Source: Candidatus Poseidoniales archaeon (GTDB lineage: Archaea; Thermoplasmatota; Poseidoniia; Poseidoniales; Poseidoniaceae). From it: 33,378 bases of DNA. Under the pieces are notes generated by a model. The model was not told where the DNA came from. It did no database searches and saw nothing but the letters and a program-made list of their open reading frames with translations. The stretch lies in assembly GCA_003602605.1 (NCBI GenBank), contig QQRW01000044.1, forward strand, positions 1 to 33,378, written 5' to 3'. This document shows positions 8,228 through 23,792 of this stretch, in pieces. The stretch's first letter is position 1. Each line of letters begins with the position of its first letter. The translations under genes and the position numbers were made by a program.

Positions 8228-10645
8228 TCACTGGTTCTTATCAAGCCACTCTTGACCGTACCATTTCCACTGATCTATGGTCCACCCTTCCGGAAGACCG
8301 CCAGGAGGCAGTGGAGGGGCTTCAACAGGTGCTTCAGATACTTCCGGTACCGGTGATGACGGTGTTTCAACACCTGCAATCGATTCAAGACTGTCCTCAT
8401 CTCCATACAAGCTCGCCGCATCTATGGTTTGGATGTCCTCAGTCTCTTCGGCAAACTCATCGGTGGCTACTGAAAAATCCATACTTTCAATCTCATCATC
8501 CCATGATGAGTCTGAAACGATGCCACCTTGAGCGGAGAGGCCTGCTGTACCCTCCAATGCCTCGTTCTCAGCCGATCTGTTCTCAGATGGAATAAATGGC
8601 ACTCCGTACATCTTGACCAAAGAATTGGTCTTCCTGCGTTTCACAACAAAGCCAATTCCCAAAATTACGACTGTAAGAGCAAGGAAAGCCCCGCCGCCAA
8701 CCATTACTACCTGTTGGACAGTGTTCGAATCAATTGAATTGGTGTCGAGAAGTCCTGCGTTTTTACTCGTGTTCCAAGCAGCGAAACTCAAATCAGTTTC
8801 TCCATCTTCTTTGTCACGTGAAAGGTAAGTCTGGTAGTCCTTGCTTCTCCAACCCTGGCAGTCCAAAGATTGATCATCAAAATTCAACAGACAATGGTCT
8901 TCTTGGGTTTGAATAAGCGGTCTTGTGTCATCGTAATCTGAATTGGAGCCAACGCCATCGTTGTCACCGTCAAAGTGTTCATTTGGATCAAGGTCCATGT
9001 TGAGAGATTCTGTAACATCGACCCAGCCGTCACCGTCTAAGTCTTCACAACCGTAAGAAGGGACTTCCTTGAAACCAACTGCAGCCGTAGAGTTTGCAAT
9101 CCATGCCTTGGTCGAAGTTCCAGCTTTCCAATTACAGTCATCGGGGAGTTCACCTGTTAAATTATCACCGTAACCGTCACCATCGCCGTCACGCCATTGT
9201 GATTTTTGCAGAGGAAGGGCATCTGCTCCTTGTGCAATGGTCCAATTCGTAGTCGGGTTGGACCAACCGTCTAAATCAGAATCAAGACAACCAAACCTGT
9301 CTTCGGTTGAAAAACCGTTCACAGATGGACATGCATCGGGAGTAACACCGTTCGGATTGTCACCAAATCCATCTTGATCAGCATCTGACCATTGTGAAGG
9401 TTCATCTATGAACATATCACCATTGAGTCCGTTGGTGTTGTCGCCGTAGCCATCACCATCAGTATCTGACCATTGTTCGGCATTCGATGGGAAAATGTCC
9501 CCTTCAAATCCACTCGGATTATCACCGTAGCCATCACCATCTGCATCTTCCCATTGCGATGCTTCGTTCGGGAAAACATCACCAAGGAAGCCGTTGAGGT
9601 TATCACCGTACCCGTCACCATCTGTATCGGCCCATTGAGTGAACTCAAGCGGGAAGACATCGAGTTGATCGGTGACTCCATCTCCATCGGTGTCGAGATC
9701 ATAGAGACGGATTTTCGAAACCGTATTGGATGAAGTTACAATGTAAAGTTCGCCGGAAAACTCCTGGACAGAACCGACGACGCGACCGGAAGAGGAGTAT
9801 GTGCTCCCTTCGGAAAAAGTCGAAACTTGTACCTGAGTTAACTTGCCGTTTTGTGTTCCAATGTGGTAGGTGAGATTGTCATATTCTTCAAGCGATATAA
9901 TCGATTTCCCGTGGCTGATTGAAAGCGTTTCAACTGCCCAAGAATTGGTATCGTATCGGAACAATTTGCCGTTTGCAGTTCCAACCAGTAAATCGCCATT
10001 ATGGTCCTCAAATACTGCGTTGACAATGGCGTTTGAATCGCTGAGCGTAGTGAGGGTTGTGCCGTCTTCTGACGATGCGATGTAAACATTTGAGTCGTAC
10101 GATCCGAGCACCAAACGTCCACCGGAGATGATTTCAAACGCATTCATTCCAGATTGCACCACTGGGGAATAGAGGCCGGTCGGGCCGAAATTATCAAACT
10201 CTTCAGCACGACGACGGCCTGCGAAAAAGGCCAACCAAAGATCACCCTCCTCATCCCAATCTGCAGCATTGACTGGATCGCTTGTCGAAATGTTACGGTT
10301 TGCAATCTGTAGATCCATGTGCACCGTATAAGCCCCGCTATCGTGGCAAACAACTGTTAATTGTTGAGCGGCATCCAAACGTGCTGAATTCGCATCGACA
10401 TCCAAATCAAGGCTCCACTGGGGAAGAAGTACGCCATTACTGAAACTGTTCACGGTCAAATTTCCCGATGTATCTACGGTTAGAATGGAGCCGTCAAACA
10501 TCTCTTTCCAATAGACAAAACTAGGTTCGGTTTCTTGAGTGTACCCTGCATCAACAAGGTTTGAACCTGTTGCAGCCACATGAGGAAGGAGTGCTGCAAT
10601 GGGCAACATCAACACAGCTACAAGAAGAACAAGTGGCCTCTTCAT
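8228..10645 (-). CDS. Membrane-anchored surface protein with thrombospondin-3-like calcium repeats
   Basis: The 805-residue protein starts with a signal peptide (MKRPLVLLVAVLMLPIAALL). Residues about 30-315 form repeated short blades, with phrases such as GDLLVGTANGKLFRYD and YHIGTQNGKLTQ, suggesting a beta-propeller. Residues about 318-625 carry Asp-rich 'DTDGDGYGDN' repeats like thrombospondin type 3 calcium repeats. A single membrane helix (about 641-668, VVMVGGGAFLALTVVILGIG) is followed by KRRK and an acidic, Pro-rich cytoplasmic tail. The tail ends with PEGWTIDQWKWYGQEWL. It is probably a cell-surface calcium-binding or adhesion protein whose ligand is unknown. A TATA-like box about 25 bp ahead of the ATG suggests a leaderless transcript. 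Confidence 0.85.
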   Translation of the reverse strand: MKRPLVLLVAVLMLPIAALLPHVAATGSNLVDAGYTQETEPSFVYWKEMFDGSILTVDTSGNLTVNSFSNGVLLPQWSLDLDVDANSARLDAAQQLTVVCHDSGAYTVHMDLQIANRNISTSDPVNAADWDEEGDLWLAFFAGRRRAEEFDNFGPTGLYSPVVQSGMNAFEIISGGRLVLGSYDSNVYIASSEDGTTLTTLSDSNAIVNAVFEDHNGDLLVGTANGKLFRYDTNSWAVETLSISHGKSIISLEEYDNLTYHIGTQNGKLTQVQVSTFSEGSTYSSSGRVVGSVQEFSGELYIVTSSNTVSKIRLYDLDTDGDGVTDQLDVFPLEFTQWADTDGDGYGDNLNGFLGDVFPNEASQWEDADGDGYGDNPSGFEGDIFPSNAEQWSDTDGDGYGDNTNGLNGDMFIDEPSQWSDADQDGFGDNPNGVTPDACPSVNGFSTEDRFGCLDSDLDGWSNPTTNWTIAQGADALPLQKSQWRDGDGDGYGDNLTGELPDDCNWKAGTSTKAWIANSTAAVGFKEVPSYGCEDLDGDGWVDVTESLNMDLDPNEHFDGDNDGVGSNSDYDDTRPLIQTQEDHCLLNFDDQSLDCQGWRSKDYQTYLSRDKEDGETDLSFAAWNTSKNAGLLDTNSIDSNTVQQVVMVGGGAFLALTVVILGIGFVVKRRKTNSLVKMYGVPFIPSENRSAENEALEGTAGLSAQGGIVSDSSWDDEIESMDFSVATDEFAEETEDIQTIDAASLYGDEDSLESIAGVETPSSPVPEVSEAPVEAPPLPPGGLPEGWTIDQWKWYGQEWLDKNQ
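9330..9690 (-). repeat. Tandem 29-residue (87-nt) calcium-type repeats within the surface protein
   Basis: Four to five copies of a unit of the form QW.D.DGDGYGDN..G..GD.FP follow each other at 29-residue spacing. The conserved core is also visible in the DNA as a recurring ATCACCGTAGCCATCACCAT on the + strand near 9525, with close variants near 9433 and 9602. A separate, looser copy lies near 9170. Confidence 0.75.
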
Positions 10646-15219: not shown

Positions 15220-16137
15220 TTAGAGATTGTCCATTGGTTTGATAAATCCAAGAATAACTGTTTTGAAAATCGCAACAACGGCGAAAATTGTTGCAGCAAC
15301 CAGAGCAATCATGGCCCCGCTTCCAGAATTGTACTCTGCTGAAAAGTAAAGACCCAAAAAAACTGCCGACAGTCCGAAAATTTGTGTCCAGATCAGACAT
15401 GAACGGAAACTTCGCCCCACCAACTGTCCAGTTGCCGCTGGAGTAACCAGTAGTGCTGTGACAAGTAATGCACCTATCACTTGAACCATGCTCACAACAA
15501 CAGCAGCGGTGAGAATACTAAAAACAAGCCCAATCGCTCGAACCGGAAGGCCTTGAACACGAGCGGCAAGTGGGTCAATGGTCGTCGATAGCAATCCTGA
15601 ATAAAGCCCCAAGAGGGAAATCAGCGCGAAAACACTTATTGTAGCAATTAAATCGAGACTCTGCTCATCAATGAGGAGTAAACTGCCAAAGAGATATCCC
15701 TCGATATCGCTGGTGATACCTCCACCAAATATCCGTATAACTACGAGGCCCAATGCGAGCATACCGGTCAAAAAGATAGCAATAGAAGCATCGCCGGTGA
15801 GTAACTCTCTGGTTTGCATTTCATGAATAATGATAGCTGAAATAACACTGAACACCAAAGCGTACCAAAGTGGCGACGAAGCACCTAGCACCACGCCAAC
15901 TGCTACACCGCCGAAAGAGACGTGAGCCAAACCATCTCCAATGAGGGCAAGGTTACGAATCAACAAAAATGAACCGAGTACGCCAGCGACCGTGGTTACC
16001 ATTATGGCTGCAATGAGAGCCCGTTGAAACATCTCCATGGTGAAGAAATATGGGAAAACCTCTCCTGGAACGAGAGGCGAAATCAATTCGAGAAGTGGCG
16101 CAACTATGTCCAAAATCGTCATCCCAATCCCCATCAT
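15220..16137 (-). CDS. znuB: Metal ABC transporter permease (ZnuB/MntB family)
   Basis: This ABC-3 family membrane permease of 305 residues forms the channel for divalent metal import. About eight hydrophobic segments are visible. The family hallmarks are present: IRNLALIGDGLAHVSFGGVA, the EGYLFGSLL segment and a C-terminal QVIGALLVTALLVTPAATG. The ATG overlaps the znuC stop as ATGA (16134-16137), with GGAGG just upstream, so translation is coupled. The substrate, zinc or manganese, cannot be told from the permease alone. The His-rich binding protein encoded upstream argues for zinc. Confidence 0.92.
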   Translation of the reverse strand: MMGIGMTILDIVAPLLELISPLVPGEVFPYFFTMEMFQRALIAAIMVTTVAGVLGSFLLIRNLALIGDGLAHVSFGGVAVGVVLGASSPLWYALVFSVISAIIIHEMQTRELLTGDASIAIFLTGMLALGLVVIRIFGGGITSDIEGYLFGSLLLIDEQSLDLIATISVFALISLLGLYSGLLSTTIDPLAARVQGLPVRAIGLVFSILTAAVVVSMVQVIGALLVTALLVTPAATGQLVGRSFRSCLIWTQIFGLSAVFLGLYFSAEYNSGSGAMIALVAATIFAVVAIFKTVILGFIKPMDNL

Positions 16138-16991
16138 TCTTCCTCCTTAACGGGGTCATCAATGTCGCTGGCTTCCAGTACACTGGTCTTCGAAGCATGC
16201 GATTTATGACCATGTACTGGTTCAATCCCACGTAATCCTGCAAGACTGGTGAGATCTGGGAACTGATCAGTATGTCCATCGAAACGTATCGATTCCTCGA
16301 GGTAAATCATTCGATGAGCAGTCTGCCGTATTGCAGCAAGGTCATGCGAGACCATCAGAATTGTCTTGTTTTCATCATGGCATAGTCGGTCAAGAAGCAA
16401 CAACAAAGAATTACGTGATTCACGGTCTATACCAACTAGAGGTTCATCAAGCAAAATAAATTCTGCCTCAGATGCCAGTGCTCGACCTATGACCGCACGC
16501 TGGCGTTGCCCTCCAGAGAGTCGCGAGATGTCGTGATCTGCAAGTTCTTCCAAACCAACCATTTTCATCGCTCTATCGACTTTCTCTCGATGAGTACCTC
16601 GTCTTCGCCAAAACATGTTACGCGAGTTCAATGTACCAAGTTGAACGAGTTCTCGGACTGTGATTCGTACGCTCTTTGGCATGACAGCAGCGGCTTGCGA
16701 AACCCAACCAATTTTACCAAGAATGCTTCTGGCCATTGGTTTTTGACCGTAAACTTCGACCGACCCGTTCTGGGCTCTCAATACTCCAAGAATCGTCAAA
16801 AGCAGCGTGGATTTACCACTACCGTTCGGCCCTACGAGACCAATAAACTCTCCTTTTGAGATTTGTAAGTCGACCTCGCTGAGTACGACCTTTCCGGCAC
16901 GACTTACCGTCAAATCCTTGATGTCGAGGATTGACGTAGCTTGTTTCATGACTTGTATGTCCGCTGGAGGTTGCATATTAAGCACTACCAT
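16134..16991 (-). CDS. znuC: Metal ABC transporter ATP-binding protein (ZnuC family)
   Basis: This 285-residue ATPase powers the ZnuB channel. It has Walker A GPNGSGKST at residues 54-62, a Q-loop in GWVSQAAA, the ABC signature LSGGQRQR, Walker B FILLDEP, the D-loop and the switch His in SHD. An extra C-terminal tail of about 45 residues ends in an acidic DDPVKEEE and contains HGHKSH, which could sense or bind metal. The first ATG is used, but Met15 (ahead of QATSILDIKDL) is an equally possible start. It follows the small membrane-protein gene by 49 bases and overlaps znuB. Confidence 0.93.
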   Translation of the reverse strand: MVVLNMQPPADIQVMKQATSILDIKDLTVSRAGKVVLSEVDLQISKGEFIGLVGPNGSGKSTLLLTILGVLRAQNGSVEVYGQKPMARSILGKIGWVSQAAAVMPKSVRITVRELVQLGTLNSRNMFWRRRGTHREKVDRAMKMVGLEELADHDISRLSGGQRQRAVIGRALASEAEFILLDEPLVGIDRESRNSLLLLLDRLCHDENKTILMVSHDLAAIRQTAHRMIYLEESIRFDGHTDQFPDLTSLAGLRGIEPVHGHKSHASKTSVLEASDIDDPVKEEE

Positions 16992-17209: not shown

Positions 17210-19978
17210 TCAGCATCCAATACCAGCGACGAGATTGTTGAGGTTCTTCGTCATCATGGTCATGTAAGTGTCATCGACATCACTTGGTGCCATCTCCATC
17301 GTGTAGAGAATTTGAATCGTAACACCGGTTTGGTCTACAAGGCTCTGAACAGAGGATTGATCGGTGTACTCCTCAACAAACAGGACAGTGATTCCTTCTT
17401 CGTTAATGAAGTTGACAACCTTTGCTATATCTTCAGGAGAAGGCTCTCCTTCAGGGTCAAGGCCGTGAACGGTAACAAATTGAATACCATACTCGACTGC
17501 AATGTAGGAGTAAGCGTTGTGATTCGCTGCAACGGTCTTTTGTTGACCTGCAACCGCACATGTTCCTTCTTCTCCAAAGGCCGTCTCGTATGCGATTGCC
17601 AGTGAGGTCAATTCAACTGAGTAAGCATCTGCATTGGTTTTGAAAACTTCTTCTCCGGCAGGGAAAGCAGTGGTGAGTCCGTCCAAAACCACGTTAACTT
17701 GTGCCTTGAAGGCCAAAGGACTGAGCCAGCTGTGAGGGTCGTAATCGAGAGAGTCTTCACCGTCATGGCCGTCATGGTCATCGTCGTCTTCACCTGCGTG
17801 ATCATCATGCCCAGCATGGTCATCATGCCCAGCATGATCATCATGGCCGCCTTCTCTCTCCAGGATATGGAATTTAACATCCATTGGAAGAGCAAAACCA
17901 TAGTCGCCTTCTGCATAGACGTGTATTGTGAGGTATCCTGCATGATGGTCGCCCTCTTCGAGTTCTTCAACCATTTCGATAAATTCGCCTAATTCTGTGA
18001 TGTTCAACAATTGGTCGCCATCCATGTCTGATTCATTGAACGCTTCCATCAGTTCGCTTTCAGTTGGTTCAGCATGTTCGTCATGGTCATCATGAGTGTC
18101 CGGTCCACCGGTTGATGCAGTCCACATGAATCCTGCAGCTTCACAGTCGGATTCGGTTGTGTAGGATGTGTTCAACGTATGTGTACCCATATCGTAACAA
18201 ACCATGTCTGAACCATGGTCGTCATCGTGATGCATCAAAGAAAGATCTGGCAGGAGAGACATATCCGAAGAGTTTGGCGCCCATGCGATGAACTCTGTTG
18301 TTTCGGGAATGTGAACCGAATCTATGCCCACATTGCTTACTTCCCAACCAGGTACTGTGGCCGTCTCGTTCCAAAGCATAAGTTGCCAGTACCATGAGTA
18401 GTCATCTGCAGCTAGTACCCCGTTGATTCCTTGGAGGTTCGTTCCGTATGTCGGGTGAACGGTATAATTGAGAACTAGACTTTCGTTGCCCATTTTTGCA
18501 ATGGTTGTAAGGTCCCATCCTGATGCGTTTTCGGGTAGCGCATCATGTTCTGCCCCATACATTTGGAGGCATTTGTTGGGGAACAAAACCACGACTCCGT
18601 AGTGTTCTTCATCATGGCCATCTTCGTGGTGGTCGTCTTCTTCATGATCATCGTGTTCCCAAGAAGCCCAAAATTCATCCCAGGAGATGTGGCTATCGTT
18701 GTTTGTATCGAACTCCTCGAGTGCTCTTTCCGGAGTCATGTGGTCTTCATCATGCCCGTCATGGTCGTCACCGTGAGCATCATGGTCGTCTTCATGGGCA
18801 TCATGGTCGTCTCCGTGAGCATCATGATCATCTCCATGGGTGTCACACGGGTCATCGTGGCCATCATGTCCGTCTTCTTCCATCCACATGTGGCCTGCTG
18901 CTTCACATTCTGATTCAGAGGTATGGTTGGTGTTTTGGTGAGTTGTTGTGTCGTGACAATAGTCGCCATCATGCTCATCGTGATCGTCTTCTTCCATCCA
19001 GATGAAGCCACCTGCTTCGCAATCAACTTTGTTGTCGATGTCGTTGTTAGTGTGGTCTGACATGTCGTGGCATACAAAGTGTTCTTCACCGTCATGGTCG
19101 TCATGGTCGTCATGGTCGTCACCATGGTCGCCATGATCATGGTGGGCGTGACCGCCAAGCATCTTCAGGGCAGCCATTGAGAAATGTTCTGGGCTTTCTT
19201 CATCGAATTCGATAACATATTCACCCTCTTCAAGATGGAAGATAGAGACAATGGTATCTGCTGGACATCCGGCAGGATTGGCAATGGTCTTTTCAGCTTC
19301 TAGGTGACTGTGGTCTTCATGCCCATCATGGCCATCTTCATGGCCATCGTCAGCATGGTCATCATCAGCATGGTCATCGTCGTCTTCATGCTCGTCATGC
19401 TCCTCCTCAGCGAAAGAGATGTTGTAGGCAGTGAATTCAGCGTGGATTTCGACATCATCAGCGTGCTCCTCTTCAGCTTCGAGTTCGACCATTTCGAACG
19501 GTCCTGCAACGAGAGTCTTACACAAGTCAGATGTAAGTAGGGACTCGTAGTCAAGCGTACTGAGGCCCTCAGGCATAGTGTGAACCTGAATAGAAGTTGG
19601 GGCATCGCTACCGAGTGAATCGAGAGTTTCGTCAACCCAAGGTTCGAGTCCCAAACCGTGGTAAAAGAATACATCGGCGTTCTGTAGACGGATAAGATCC
19701 GCAGCAGATGGCTCATAGTCGTGGACTGGAATGTTGTCAAGACTCATGTACTCCATCTCTACATTTTCACCAGCGATACCTTTCACGAGTTCACCGATAT
19801 GGTAGGTGGACACCATAACGGTCCCTAGCACACCAACTACGGTAGAATTGTTACCATCATTCATGTTGTCAGTGGAATCTTCAACGGTGATTGTTCCATC
19901 ATCGCCAAGACACCCAGCAAGGCTGGTAAAAATCATGATCAGGCTTACGAAAACGACTCTCATACGGTTGTTGTTCAT
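17210..19978 (-). CDS. znuA: ZnuA-like metal-binding lipoprotein with a giant metal-rich insert
   Basis: This 922-residue lipoprotein (lipobox LAGC, anchor Cys23) captures metal for ZnuB/ZnuC. The two halves of a cluster A-I binding protein are clear. The first half is residues 47-160 with ligand His86 in VHDYEPSAADLIRLQNADV. The second is residues 745-922 with DPHSWLSP (His749), NHNAYSYIAVEYG (His820) and LFVEEYTDQSS (Glu869/870). The usual short His-rich loop ahead of DPHSW is replaced by nearly 600 residues. The insert has Asp/His-rich tracts, EF-hand-like loops at 424-435 and 651-662, and a two-Cys module three times (C303-C320, C341-C358, C594-C612). A globular segment at 460-568 loosely resembles DUF4430. 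The family is normally about 300 residues. A TATA box and a dyad lie upstream. Confidence 0.88.
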   Translation of the reverse strand: MNNNRMRVVFVSLIMIFTSLAGCLGDDGTITVEDSTDNMNDGNNSTVVGVLGTVMVSTYHIGELVKGIAGENVEMEYMSLDNIPVHDYEPSAADLIRLQNADVFFYHGLGLEPWVDETLDSLGSDAPTSIQVHTMPEGLSTLDYESLLTSDLCKTLVAGPFEMVELEAEEEHADDVEIHAEFTAYNISFAEEEHDEHEDDDDHADDDHADDGHEDGHDGHEDHSHLEAEKTIANPAGCPADTIVSIFHLEEGEYVIEFDEESPEHFSMAALKMLGGHAHHDHGDHGDDHDDHDDHDGEEHFVCHDMSDHTNNDIDNKVDCEAGGFIWMEEDDHDEHDGDYCHDTTTHQNTNHTSESECEAAGHMWMEEDGHDGHDDPCDTHGDDHDAHGDDHDAHEDDHDAHGDDHDGHDEDHMTPERALEEFDTNNDSHISWDEFWASWEHDDHEEDDHHEDGHDEEHYGVVVLFPNKCLQMYGAEHDALPENASGWDLTTIAKMGNESLVLNYTVHPTYGTNLQGINGVLAADDYSWYWQLMLWNETATVPGWEVSNVGIDSVHIPETTEFIAWAPNSSDMSLLPDLSLMHHDDDHGSDMVCYDMGTHTLNTSYTTESDCEAAGFMWTASTGGPDTHDDHDEHAEPTESELMEAFNESDMDGDQLLNITELGEFIEMVEELEEGDHHAGYLTIHVYAEGDYGFALPMDVKFHILEREGGHDDHAGHDDHAGHDDHAGEDDDDHDGHDGEDSLDYDPHSWLSPLAFKAQVNVVLDGLTTAFPAGEEVFKTNADAYSVELTSLAIAYETAFGEEGTCAVAGQQKTVAANHNAYSYIAVEYGIQFVTVHGLDPEGEPSPEDIAKVVNFINEEGITVLFVEEYTDQSSVQSLVDQTGVTIQILYTMEMAPSDVDDTYMTMMTKNLNNLVAGIGC
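17803..17838 (-). repeat. 18-nt tandem repeat coding for Asp/His units in znuA
   Basis: Two nearly identical 18-nt units (17803-17820 and 17821-17838) with partial copies on both sides encode the HDDHAG repeats at residues about 712-729. Such repeats are prone to length change. Confidence 0.75.
18760..18843 (-). repeat. 21-nt tandem repeat, four copies, in znuA
   Basis: Units at 18760-18780, 18781-18801, 18802-18822 and 18823-18843 share a core close to CATGGTCGTC on the + strand. They encode seven-residue HGDDHDA-type units at residues about 380-406. Confidence 0.8.
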
Positions 19979-20507: not shown

Positions 20508-21023
20508 TTACTTTTTCTTCGCAATAAGGGCGATACTCGCTGGAAGGAAATTCCAAGGCAAATTGAGTTCGATACCGTGCTCCAGTGCAAGAAGTTCCAG
20601 TACTCTCTTAGCACCGACCTGGTCACGTGATCCGTCCAATCGTAAGATATGGATTTCACCACCGTCAGAAACCGCATCGGAAAGTGTCGACGGAAGAGAG
20701 TCTACATCACCAACTGAAACTTGAGTCGATGCAGGTTGGGTAGCAGGTGGTGACGGATTGGGCCGAGTCGTAAGCATCTCAGGCAAATCCACGTGTGTGG
20801 ATTTCTTCCACCATCGCGCACGGCCAACATCCCTGTGATTTTCAATGAGTCCAAGCGATGCGAGTTTCTTCAGGTGGTGGTAGAGGTTGTACCGCTCGAC
20901 ATCAACTTCAGCTTGTAGTTGCACAGTACTCATCTCTTCAGCTGTAGCTAGGCAGATGTACAACGCCCTTCGAGTAGGATGGGCAAGTGCGGTCGTAACT
21001 GGGTCTGCTCGAACTCGTGCCAC
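20508..21023 (-). CDS. ArsR-like winged-helix transcriptional regulator
   Basis: The first 75 residues form an ArsR-type winged helix: HPTRRALYICLATAEEMST, the recognition region VDVERYNLYHHLKKLASLGL and a wing ending GRARWWKKS. The rest (about 76-171) is a Pro/Ser/Thr-rich linker and a small domain (GGEIHILRLDGSRDQVGAK) that I do not recognise. The only Cys, at residue 24, is not in a CxC metal-sensing motif, so direct metal sensing is not evident. The start is a GTG at 21023 following GGTGAG. It sits between the metal P-type ATPase and the zinc genes and may control them. Confidence 0.75.
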   Translation of the reverse strand: MARVRADPVTTALAHPTRRALYICLATAEEMSTVQLQAEVDVERYNLYHHLKKLASLGLIENHRDVGRARWWKKSTHVDLPEMLTTRPNPSPPATQPASTQVSVGDVDSLPSTLSDAVSDGGEIHILRLDGSRDQVGAKRVLELLALEHGIELNLPWNFLPASIALIAKKK

Positions 21024-21092
21024 CTTCTCACCGTTGGCTGAGAGATGCTTCTAAGGTTTGAAGATGCCGCGTCACGAAGTGATGAGTTGCCT

Positions 21093-23792
21093 TCACTGAG
21101 ACAGATAACGCAACTTAAGGACATGGAATGCATCCTTTGTATCGAACCATAGCGACTTGAGAATGGATTTCAACAGTATAATTGCGCCATCGCCGCCTGC
21201 GAGTCGTGCACCGTTCAGAATAACGAGTATGACCGATGCCTCGTGAATAAGTACCCCAACCCATAACTCGTCATACAGTTGCATAATGACCGCCACAACA
21301 AGAGAAAGAGTGATGCCTACCGTAATCAGGAGATTCCCGATGAGAATACGTTGGGCACTTCTCGCCAAGTCAACCAAATCAGTGAGCATGAGGGGGTTAT
21401 CGCTGGGTATCAAAACATCCGCCGCTTCAAGATTGACTGTTTCACCGGTACCAACAGCAACACCGACATCTGCCAATGCCAATGCTGCAGCATCGTTGAA
21501 TCCATCACCAACCATCATAGTGATATGGGTCTTTGAACGGTTCTTTACCCATTCAACCTTCTGCTCAGGCGAAAATCCACCGTGTGCAGCAGACTCAGGC
21601 AATCCTACACTCTTCGCAAAAGCGGAGACTGCCGATTGATGATCACCGGATAAGATTTCGACATTGATTGAACGAGCAGTCAGTGAAGAAATCAATTCTT
21701 TACTGCCATCATGGGTATCATCGTGGATAAACGTCACCAAAGCAATTGCCTCGCCACCTCGGACGAGTAAACTTGCACCATGACCCTTCGCCTCGGTTAC
21801 GGAATAAGCCGATTGCAAATCAGTGGGTACAACCACATCAAGAGATGCTGCACGGTCAAAACGAATGAACATGACTTCTTTCCCAGCAACCATCCCTCGA
21901 ACCCCTGCCTCAATATCAGAGATTGCTGAAACCTGAGTCGGGACAATGTTTTGCTCATCGAGGTACTCCATCACCGATAATGCGTAAGGGTGCGAAGATC
22001 GGGCTTCAAGTCCACCTGCGAGTTTGAGGGCAGCAGAGCGTTGCTTACCCTTCGCCATGATGAATTCGCCTAAGCGGGGTTTTCCAGAGGTCAATGTCCC
22101 GGTTTTATCCAAGAGAATGTGGTTAACACGAGAGAGACGTTCGATAACATCACCACCGCGAGCTATTGCTCCAAAATGTGCCGAACGTGAGAGCGCTGCT
22201 GCATGAGGGACTGGGGTCGCCAGAAGCAAAGCGCACGGACAGGCGACAACCCAAATCAGCAGTATCACTTTCCAGTTTTGAGGGAACATGAAATACCAAA
22301 TTGCAACTGCACCCAAAAGAACAATTGGCACCCATATAGCGGTAAACAGTTCGATGCTGCTTTGCAATCGCGGAGGGTCTTCGCGGAACGTATGGACGGC
22401 ATCGATGAGACCAGAGAGGCGTGTATCGTCGCCAACAGCTGTCACCCTTACTACAACAGGACCTCGGGCTAAGATCAGTCCAGCCTGTATCTCATCTCCA
22501 TCCGATACTTCGACTGGAACCGATTCGCCGGTCAGAGGTGCTTTGTCGAGTGACCCATGGCCTTCGATGATGACTCCATCTGCTGGAATCAACTCCCCAC
22601 TGCGAATCTCGATGGAATCCCCAATACGGATGAGTTCGATTGGCACGGTTTCATGAAGAGAATTAGGATCCGGTAAAGCGCAACCGTCAGCACCAATGAG
22701 TGGAGAAGGAGTGGTAGCCATCTGTAAAGTAAAACCGGTGTTTGCAAGTTGAGAGATGCTTTTTGGCTTGTTCCCTGTAATTCTTCGTGCGGTACGAGGC
22801 AAACGGTCCAAGCCGCCTTGCATTGCTTCACGAGCTTTGGTTAGAGCGTCACCCTCAAGATGAGCAGTGAATGCTACCAAGATGGCTACAACAAGTGCCT
22901 CTTCCCACATCCCAAGAATGGCAGCGCCTATTACGGCTAGACTGGTCAGCACTTGAAAACCAAGTTGTTTGTTGTTGATACTGGCTGCGGCTTCCTTGAA
23001 CATTTGAGAGCCACCAATGATGAGACCGGGCAAAGCAAGAGCACCGAGAACGACATTCGACATGCCAATGATTTCTCCAATGATGACCATCACGAGAAGA
23101 GGAAGCGCAATTCCGCCGCCAATTAATCGCCACTGATCTGGGCGAATACGGTTCGATTCTGCTGGTGCATAGCGAACCTGTGTGCCGATTATTTCTGAAA
23201 GAGATGCATCGCGAACTTCAAAAATCTCCTTTGAAACTTCTGTAGCCAACTGCAGAAGAATTCGTTCATCGTCGGTGATTTCAACATCCAATACTCCGGG
23301 TTGTTGTTTGAGAATTTTCACCAGTTTACGTTGGTCAACTTCGTTACGTTGAGCCATTTGCGAACTACGAACTCCGACGATTTCGTGAAAAGGAACATCG
23401 GGGGCATGACCTAAGGAACGGAGAACCGACGAGATTTCAGACAAAGGACCGTCTTCAAGGTCGACTTCAACCGTCACCATACCAGCTGTAGCGGAAACCT
23501 TTGTGGTCTTTACCTGCGGCAGAAAATTAAGTGCACGTGTTGCTTTACTCGCACAATCAGGACAGTCCATTCCGAGCAGCGGCCAACTCACATCGAATAT
23601 TCCAGTTGCTTGAGTAACCATTGTGGCATCCAAAATCTCCGCATCAAGAACTTCAGTTGGACGGTTCTTGACGGTTTTCTTTAGCGCACGTATACGTGAT
23701 TTTGGTGAATTCGGACCAAGTACCGGTTCCGGAATAAGAGCATCATCGTCATCGAGCGAGAGGAAGACATCACTCTTGTCACTCTTAGACAT
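21093..23792 (-). CDS. Heavy-metal-transporting P1B-type ATPase
   Basis: This 899-residue pump exports (or occasionally imports) soft or transition metals. An N-terminal HMA domain has GMDCPDCA (Cys77, Cys80), and a second domain of similar shape at about 153-210 lacks the Cys pair. Then follow the actuator loop TGES (421-424), membrane motif CPC (518-520), phosphorylation site DKTGT (Asp562), the SSHPYA motif (His601) and GDGFNDAAALALADVG. The last membrane pair carries HEASVILVILNGARL (His850, Glu851) rather than the copper-type pattern. This suggests zinc, cadmium or cobalt, although the class is not clean. A roughly 40-residue insert (341-381) lies ahead of the actuator domain. The start follows GAGGG. 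Confidence 0.92.
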   Translation of the reverse strand: MSKSDKSDVFLSLDDDDALIPEPVLGPNSPKSRIRALKKTVKNRPTEVLDAEILDATMVTQATGIFDVSWPLLGMDCPDCASKATRALNFLPQVKTTKVSATAGMVTVEVDLEDGPLSEISSVLRSLGHAPDVPFHEIVGVRSSQMAQRNEVDQRKLVKILKQQPGVLDVEITDDERILLQLATEVSKEIFEVRDASLSEIIGTQVRYAPAESNRIRPDQWRLIGGGIALPLLVMVIIGEIIGMSNVVLGALALPGLIIGGSQMFKEAAASINNKQLGFQVLTSLAVIGAAILGMWEEALVVAILVAFTAHLEGDALTKAREAMQGGLDRLPRTARRITGNKPKSISQLANTGFTLQMATTPSPLIGADGCALPDPNSLHETVPIELIRIGDSIEIRSGELIPADGVIIEGHGSLDKAPLTGESVPVEVSDGDEIQAGLILARGPVVVRVTAVGDDTRLSGLIDAVHTFREDPPRLQSSIELFTAIWVPIVLLGAVAIWYFMFPQNWKVILLIWVVACPCALLLATPVPHAAALSRSAHFGAIARGGDVIERLSRVNHILLDKTGTLTSGKPRLGEFIMAKGKQRSAALKLAGGLEARSSHPYALSVMEYLDEQNIVPTQVSAISDIEAGVRGMVAGKEVMFIRFDRAASLDVVVPTDLQSAYSVTEAKGHGASLLVRGGEAIALVTFIHDDTHDGSKELISSLTARSINVEILSGDHQSAVSAFAKSVGLPESAAHGGFSPEQKVEWVKNRSKTHITMMVGDGFNDAAALALADVGVAVGTGETVNLEAADVLIPSDNPLMLTDLVDLARSAQRILIGNLLITVGITLSLVVAVIMQLYDELWVGVLIHEASVILVILNGARLAGGDGAIILLKSILKSLWFDTKDAFHVLKLRYLSQ

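Follow-up and report, generated by a model that had tools for sequence, protein, structure and literature searches.

A ZnuA-type lipoprotein with an insert in its metal loop

The window, by which we mean the whole 33,378-nucleotide stretch of contig QQRW01000044.1 from a Candidatus Poseidoniales archaeon, encodes the substrate-binding lipoprotein (SBP) of a ZnuA-type zinc ABC transporter, and the metal loop (D-loop) of this protein carries an insert of 604 residues. The gene is a single open reading frame (ORF) with no internal stops, and its parts are listed in Table 1. The Pfam family PF01297 (ZnuA) matches the 922-residue protein in two stretches (E 3.9e-51; 174.5 bits compared to a cut-off of 29), the best of them at residues 725-918, and the closest solved structure by sequence, Streptococcus pneumoniae AdcA (7jj8), aligns at residues 54-125 and 730-916. 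The insert lies between the N-lobe and the DPHSWL motif and ends directly before the ligand His749. His accounts for 71 of its 604 residues (11.8%), compared to an average of 2.2% and a maximum of 4.1% in the 19 other window genes that we took; Asp and Glu together make up 29.5%, the net charge is about -169, and there are five runs of at least 12 residues composed of Asp, His, Glu, Gly, Ala and Asn. The initial annotation had recognized a single ZnuA with a multi-domain insert of about 600 residues in the metal loop, and the two PF01297 stretches, the AdcA alignment and the fold of a relative (below) bear this out. The span it gave, 17700-19550, matches ours, although the insert starts about 20 residues before residue 160, where it had been placed.

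The metal ligands were assigned by alignment to AdcA, whose ligand residues are given in the available part of PMC7858048. His86, His749 and His820 pair with AdcA His63, His140 and His204 at a constant, hand-counted offset of 26, and the same offset places AdcA Glu279 on Glu895 (in LYTMEM). The initial annotation had named the three histidines correctly, but had put the acidic ligand at Glu869/870. The resulting set of H86, H749, H820 and E895 is present in all 44 rows of an alignment made up of the window protein and 43 of 78 related loci, picked for long readable frames; E869 and E870 are likewise kept in 44 of 44. A set of three His and one Glu fits the zinc-specific groups of cluster A-I, as these are described in the part of PMC7731109 available to us.

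Both halves of the protein are predicted to form a single ZnuA fold. This prediction relies on the minimal relative (locus L089) and on the per-residue confidence (pLDDT) of the window model; both AlphaFold2 models are metal-free. The L089 model (44 sequences) has a pLDDT of 81.7 and a predicted TM-score (pTM) of 0.76, and Foldseek aligns it with AdcA over 494 columns (TM 0.84 of target, root-mean-square deviation 5.4), which indicates that the two halves are one ZnuA body into which a beta domain is inserted. The window model (54 sequences; mean pLDDT 75.5, pTM 0.55) is confident in the lobes, where 10-residue pLDDT blocks range from 76 to 98 and mostly exceed 87, and in the beta-domain strands (mostly 80-94), while the blocks of the DUF4430-like module are mostly 54-84 and most tracts lie below 50. 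The earlier expectation that the flanking segments fold together thus holds in the L089 model and in the confident lobes of the window model, although Foldseek aligned only about 180 columns of the latter, about one lobe.

The Asp/His tracts, two EF-hand-like loops, three two-Cys modules and globular segment (about residues 458-590) that had been described within the insert were all found. The names of the variable modules are labels that come from patterns or from sub-threshold Pfam matches, and the pairing within the two-Cys modules was assigned by eye; in the window's own genome these modules occur in this gene only. We say "EF-hand-like" because the matches stay below the Pfam gathering thresholds (22.4 compared to 25.4 bits for PF00036 and 26.7 compared to 30 bits for PF13499), and a third, loose EF pattern match at residue 585 is probably due to chance. 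DUF4430 (PF14478) gave no match on residues 455-580 of the window protein, and reached 17.2 bits, below its threshold of 23.8, on a related SCO1-like protein of the same genome (L002:670-2241, contig C51; PF02630, E 3.4e-25), which holds two modules related to the DUF4430-like one. The SCO1-like protein is presumably a copper-type chaperone, so that the module would be common to a zinc SBP and a copper chaperone; its gene adjoins a short membrane ORF, which we take to resemble a cytochrome oxidase small subunit.

Table 1. Features of the inserted ZnuA gene and of its transporter operon, with positions in the window and residue numbers of the 922-residue protein
Feature	Position	Strand	Evidence
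ZnuA-type zinc ABC transporter substrate-binding lipoprotein with D-loop insert, 922 aa	17210..19978	-	ORF; PF01297; AdcA/ZnuA structures by sequence
Signal peptide and presumed lipobox SLAGC (Cys23), residues 1-23	19910..19978	-	Sequence; Cys23 invariant in alignment A1 (10 rows)
N-lobe, residues 47-140, ligand His86	19559..19840	-	PF01297; AdcA alignment; pLDDT blocks 87-97 from residue 51
Insert in metal loop (D-loop), residues 141-744, 604 aa	17747..19558	-	PF01297; AdcA alignment; composition
First piece of conserved accessory domain, residues 141-190: helix with Cys153, strand EIHAE	19409..19558	-	Cys153 in 44/44 rows; pLDDT blocks 86-94
Asp/His tract 1, residues 191-222	19313..19408	-	Composition; pLDDT <50 at 195-222
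Beta core part 1, residues 223-284: His223, Cys238, hairpin FHLEEGEYVIEF, GGHAHHDH (His277, His282)	19127..19312	-	Conservation; model strands 230-233, 242-249, 252-259, 265-272; pLDDT blocks 88-94 over 231-270
Two two-Cys modules, C303/C320 and C341/C358	18905..19072	-	Cys pattern
Asp/His tract, about residues 366-412	18743..18883	-	TRF arrays of period 21 and 42; tract 381-413; pLDDT <50 at 368-411
EF-hand-like loop 1, loop 424-435, DTNNDSHISWDE	18653..18733	-	PF00036, 22.4 compared to 25.4 bits; model helices 416-423, 433-442
DUF4430-like globular module, residues 458-590	18209..18607	-	Related to modules of SCO1-like protein of same genome, E 1e-9
Third two-Cys module, C594/C612	18143..18199	-	Cys pattern
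EF-hand-like loop 2, loop 651-662, DMDGDQLLNITE	17954..18061	-	PF00036, E 5.4e-4, 19.8 bits, sub-threshold; model helices 640-650, 660-675; pLDDT blocks 92-95 over 641-670
Beta core part 2, residues 676-712: hairpin LTIHVYAEGDYGFAL, His686	17843..17953	-	H686 in 44/44 rows; model strands 680-687, 691-698, 703-706; pLDDT blocks 92, 94, 80 over 681-710
Asp/His tract running into DPHSWL, residues 712-742	17753..17845	-	TRF period 18; composition; pLDDT <50 at 710-742
C-lobe, residues 745-922, ligands His749, His820, Glu895; conserved C807, C922	17213..17746	-	AdcA alignment; conservation
ABC ATPase of same transporter	16134..16991	-	PF00005; best NCBIfam match AztA, below cut-off
ABC-3 permease of same transporter	15220..16137	-	PF00950, E 3.2e-59; best NCBIfam match AztB, below cut-off

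The gene is followed by those of an ATPase and an ABC-3 permease, as in cluster A-I and ZnuA systems, and both lie downstream on the same strand in 60 of the 60 loci whose contig runs past the ZnuA gene (from 78 loci, with the duplicates L160, L163 and L164 removed and one unrelated ATPase match in L117 left out; the other 18 contigs stop inside the gene). The best NCBIfam match of the SBP is AztC (NF040870), at 131.3 bits compared to a cut-off of 350. Since the matches to AztC, AztA and AztB all fall below their cut-offs, we name the system only a cluster A-I zinc-type importer. One genome (JADHRW01; G053) has two inserted ZnuA copies (L085 and L112) with differing payloads in frames of 680 and 826 aa, each with its own ATPase and permease.

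Directly upstream of ZnuA in the window (20508-23792, reverse strand) are an ArsR-like helix-turn-helix protein and a P1B-type metal ATPase with an HMA domain; the ATPase is on the opposite strand in L059, L060 and L083. Elsewhere in the window (8228-10645, reverse strand), an 805-aa secreted-looking ORF has many calcium-type D-x-D-x-D-G repeats, and we take it to be thrombospondin-3-like and a further calcium-binding surface protein.

A conserved beta domain, its payload and its distribution

The insert can be divided into two layers. One is conserved, a discontinuous beta domain (residues 141-190, 223-284 and 676-712); the other, which we call the payload, is exchangeable and comprises Asp/His tracts, two-Cys modules, EF-hand-like loops and further domains. 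His223, His277, His282, His686, Cys153 and Cys238 are invariant across the 44 aligned rows, while His280 is kept in 43 and His248 in 37. Scoring by pattern in 50 proteins (the 49 loci described below that have both lobes in one frame, plus the window; L097 was not scorable and is entered as a miss) found hairpin 2 of the core in 48, hairpin 1 in 46 and the GGHAH motif in 44. The payload was scored in the same way: two-Cys modules are present in 42 proteins, EF-hand-like loops in 37 (a loose pattern), a domain marked by EWAGF in 15, the DUF4430-like module in 12 and an LDLa-like module, a label that is our assumption, in three. L089 has the beta domain and tracts of Asp, His and Asn, and none of the scored modules.

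Parts of the payload also occur apart from ZnuA, in a 963-aa lipoprotein from a different genome (L050:3293-6181, reverse strand) that has no ZnuA lobes and carries two-Cys modules, EF-like loops, an LDLa-like stretch and Asp/His tracts; its C-terminal hydrophobic tail we take to resemble a PGF-CTERM signal. The EWAGF domain of some relatives had no match in PDB, Pfam or NCBIfam, and a search of the window's own genome, run without a positive control, did not find it. ZepA was considered as a candidate for this domain and set aside, since its H-X2-9-H-F/Y-H motif, taken from the available part of PMC10957091, was not recognized there, as judged by eye only.

The relatives were gathered by scanning the species genomes of GTDB with patterns, and the best 80 of 141 were used, representing 78 distinct loci. 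One of the two scan patterns lies in the insert, and the set is therefore biased towards insert-bearing members. Both lobes share one open frame in 49 of the 78 loci; seven have a broken frame, two without N (L054 and L111) and five with runs of N, and 22 have one lobe only (18 the N-lobe and 4 the C-lobe). In the 44 single-frame loci without ambiguous bases the inserts are 329-821 aa long (median 573) and contain 8-15% His; the shortest member, L089, with an insert of about 230 residues, is among the five of 49 with ambiguous bases. The single frame is also found in a 2.06-Mb chromosome record (CM001443.1; L065) and in a 533-kb contig of isolate PACB-20200310-m80 (L110), the long-read origin of which is presumed from its name, and the insert-bearing records include some under the title Poseidoniales and others under Marine Group III (L084, L106, L122 and L128).

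The initial annotation had asked whether other Poseidoniales share the insert and whether related genomes would instead show two separate genes joined by an assembly fusion. The 49 single-frame loci answer the first question positively and rule out the second possibility. The breaks read in G259, G112, G190, G198 and G118 fall in or beside Asp/His tracts. Because the inserted gene often breaks assemblies, the architecture may have stayed hidden. We found no description of the insert in the literature on zinc in Poseidoniales and Marine Group II, on cluster A-I and on the His-rich loop of ZnuA, a search whose scope left out most subscription papers; parts of PMC9820375, PMC9258230 and PMC7618865 were also drawn on.

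In an order-wide profile search made independently of the insert, a ZnuA match came up in 163 of 292 genomes, and there was no ordinary short Poseidoniales ZnuA among the 20 short frames checked from it: 13 are at a contig end, five hold runs of N, one has a frameshift (L189, G259) and one is a contaminant (L191). In a phylum sample, 148 of 292 genomes match the ZnuA profile, and most of the listed end-to-end matches outside the class are about 265-370 aa, with a few longer. The suggestion that such a protein would be unusual for a small marine archaeon needs rewording, since the inserted ZnuA looks like the rule in this clade, as far as checked. The contaminant is a ZnuA-like frame beside a gene that by eye is bacterial and prepilin-like, on a contig (G270:C25) of a Poseidoniales assembly. 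Conversely, a record titled Rhodobiaceae bacterium (CALDQY010000237.1; L102) has a Poseidoniales-type ZnuA operon and is probably a mis-binned contig.

Proposed zinc collection in cis and its rivals

The insert is under purifying selection in the one sequence pair compared. Between the window and L053, dN/dS (our own NG86 script) is 0.060 for the N-lobe, 0.138 for the C-lobe and 0.137 for the whole insert; within the insert it is 0.089 for the beta core and 0.154 for the tracts, whose alignment is uncertain. All 36 gap columns lie in or beside tracts and none within folded modules, and the composition of the tracts is kept while synonymous sites turn over. The low dN/dS of the insert and the kept tract composition speak against neutral clutter.

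We propose that this lipoprotein serves a zinc importer of the ZnuABC/AztABC type and that its D-loop houses an accessory metal-binding domain, which would collect zinc in cis; we give this proposal about an even chance. With its invariant His and its position between the N-lobe and DPHSWL, the conserved beta domain would take up zinc and pass it on to the site formed by His86, His749, His820 and Glu895 in the same chain. The insert would play in cis the part that AztD, and probably ZinT as well, plays in trans at this loop in bacteria. The Asp/His tracts could act as a kinetic antenna, that is, a capture area, more than as a reservoir, and might make capture faster or be of use near particles; the payload of Cys modules, EF-hand-like loops, and DUF4430-like and other domains would fold or extend the insert. 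In the available parts of the respective papers, AztC requires its D-loop to take zinc from AztD (PMC7463823), weight is given to the D-loop in the interaction with the chaperones AztD and ZinT, with a loop of more than 30 residues termed extremely long (PMC7731109), and the His-rich loop of AdcA is located between its ZnuA-like and ZinT-like domains (PMC7858048). The proposal also draws on the invariant His and Cys, the selection estimate, the operon, the ligand set, and the zinc transporter that Rinke et al. (PMC6461757) report from most Ca. Poseidoniales, which we assume to be this one.

This proposal departs in two respects from that of the initial annotation, which had favored a high-capacity metal buffer or trap, possibly gated by calcium. 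Calcium gating is unsupported: sea water holds about 10 mM Ca, in which EF-hands would stay permanently loaded, and the EF-like loops occur, by a loose pattern, in only 37 of 50 proteins. As for the buffer, the free zinc of surface sea water falls short of hundreds of nM by orders of magnitude. Comparable sites are weak (340 nM for the third site of AztD and 287 nM for site 4 of ZrgA, in the available parts of the published accounts), so the tracts would be nearly empty at equilibrium. A bulk buffer is thus less likely than a kinetic antenna or than the presence of tighter sites on the folded beta domain.

Several points weigh against zinc collection in cis. The same affinities, in the hundreds of nM, are too weak for such sites to fill at the free zinc of sea water, and published loop deletions, as far as the available parts of the papers tell, are mild or silent. 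The estimate of selection is based on a single sequence pair, and zinc binding by the insert and transfer in cis are suggested by its position and its invariant His, the antenna role being a further supposition. The acidic tracts may be occupied mostly by Ca and Mg, and trans-chaperones of another kind may serve. Neither ZinT (PF09223) nor AztD (NF038015) was found in 59 genomes, in searches that were positive in 3 and 2 of 14 control genomes, respectively; since both are also absent from most control genomes, this is weak evidence for the proposal.

Of the rival explanations, the one that survives best, although we think it unlikely, is that the insert is a general divalent-cation surface extension, in which acidic tracts filled with Ca and Mg, together with EF-hand-like and LDLa-like modules, build a stiff, charged stalk or an adhesive surface, and the ordinary site takes care of the zinc supply. 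The strong negative charge and the EF-like loops fit this explanation, as does the presence of the same kit of modules and tracts in the L050 lipoprotein without ZnuA lobes; in addition, Lmb, itself a member of cluster A-I, is called bifunctional, adhesin and metal in the available part of its PDB title. However, neither 8-15% His nor the invariant His of the insert is needed for Ca or Mg, and in the 49 single-frame loci the insert is placed in the loop beside the zinc site.

We consider it improbable that the tracts serve as a sensor or brake, filling only at high zinc and then slowing loading or permease docking to prevent overload. A sensor role has been proposed for the weak-binding zinc protein PA4063, in the available part of the source, and the P1B-type ATPase and ArsR-like regulator lie just upstream in the window. 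However, these two are neighbors of the gene in only 7 and 6 of 81 loci, respectively, many of the contigs being short. According to the available part of PMC6461757, most Ca. Poseidoniales have a zinc transporter and deep-water genera do not, which Rinke et al. read as adaptation to zinc-poor surface water; on our assumption that their transporter is the one described here, the reported absence in deep water makes overload an unlikely driver.

We similarly doubt that the metal carried is a different one (Cu, Ni, Co or Mn), with an insert tuned to it. The DUF4430-like module is common to the SCO1-like protein of the same genome, which we take to be copper-handling, but the ligand set is three His and one Glu, and the nearest NCBIfam models, AztC, AztA and AztB, are zinc systems, although all are below cut-off. 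Equally hard to credit, and already weakened, is the view of the insert as clutter in a permissive loop, with tracts that grow by repeat slippage and modules that shuffle in without a selected function: the tandem repeats, the length range of 329-821 aa, the varying content of modules (12, 15 and 3 of 50 for the DUF4430-like, EWAGF and LDLa-like ones) and the contigs that often end or hold N runs within this gene are set against the dN/dS of 0.137 in one pair, hairpin 2 in 48 of 50 proteins, the invariant His and Cys, and the lack of a short ZnuA of this clade among the 20 short frames checked.

The insert is thus read as a variant of the ZnuA kind that is clade-wide as far as checked, and its proposed function is a plausible inference. 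What the flexible loops of zinc SBPs do is termed somewhat enigmatic in the available part of PMC7731109, their deletion having little effect as long as no chaperone partner is taken into account. The idea that the loop is a receiver could be tested directly in a clade where it has turned into a folded domain that is conserved, keeps invariant His and shows purifying selection. The architecture is also of interest for the question of how a scarce metal is obtained by Marine Group II, which the available part of PMC6461757 ranks as the most abundant planktonic archaea in ocean surface waters.

Other inserts at the D-loop and known zinc systems

Inserts at the same place are found in other Thermoplasmatota. 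The ZnuA proteins of L151-L153 and L158 have one of about 130-150 residues with a similar last hairpin, in which no Asp/His tracts or modules of the Poseidoniia kind were seen. A comparison with hhalign against the Poseidoniia beta domain gave 69.7% with all four inserts, and 36.7% and 0.2% with two subsets, which is at most suggestive of homology; a sequence search with these smaller inserts in 292 genomes returned their source family and two weak matches only. A third kind occurs in the ZnuA of another Thermoplasmatota genome (L155:1565-3655), in which a propeller-like insert of about 400 aa occupies the same loop, with DUF5711 just over and PQQ_2 just under its cut-off. By eye, ATPase and permease frames follow ZnuA in L151-L153 and L155. 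We considered whether the L155 insert is AztD in cis and rejected this, since there was no NCBIfam AztD match and no PDB match below E 0.05. Among 100 genomes of its family, five gave a match. One is L155, and the other four are weak (E about 5e-4 to 8e-4) and lie in 238-aa frames that are too short for such a ZnuA, so that one of the 100 has an L155-type insert within a ZnuA frame.

As inserts of differing kinds lie at the same place in these relatives, a smaller globular one in two other families and a propeller-like one in a third, the D-loop seems to be a slot that accepts domains in Thermoplasmatota. A more tentative extension, which we hold possible rather than probable, is that in class Poseidoniia a metallochaperone was taken into this slot, with the His-bearing beta domain and its swappable metal and calcium payload passing zinc in cis, that the slot was used recurrently, and that a chaperone in cis arose more than once.

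Among known systems, ZrgA of Vibrio cholerae is, in the available parts of the literature, likewise a zinc SBP with a long central loop, rich in His, Asp and Glu, that has extra zinc sites, but its fold is unrelated and its loop, of about 60 residues (124-184), is dispensable. ZnuA of the E. coli type shares the position of a His-rich loop before the same ligand and the operon of an ABC importer, whereas its loop is tens of residues long and disordered in crystals, according to the portions available. AdcA of S. pneumoniae is closer: it is a cluster A-I zinc SBP with the same three His and one Glu as ligands, and the same loop position, and its chain likewise carries an auxiliary domain related to zinc. 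However, this auxiliary domain is a C-terminal ZinT-like fusion, the His-rich loop has 17 residues (120-136) and not about 600, and AdcA is described, in the part of the source available, without EF-hands, Cys modules or Asp/His tracts of such size; the window protein ends after the C-lobe and reaches only 58.7 bits, compared to a cut-off of 700, with the model of the AdcA-type ZnuA-ZinT fusion (NF033605). In the AztABCD system of Paracoccus denitrificans, AztC is the nearest NCBIfam relative (131 compared to 350 bits) and its D-loop is the zinc-receiving loop for a metallochaperone, but there the metallochaperone AztD is a separate beta-propeller protein, one that the 59 genomes searched did not yield.

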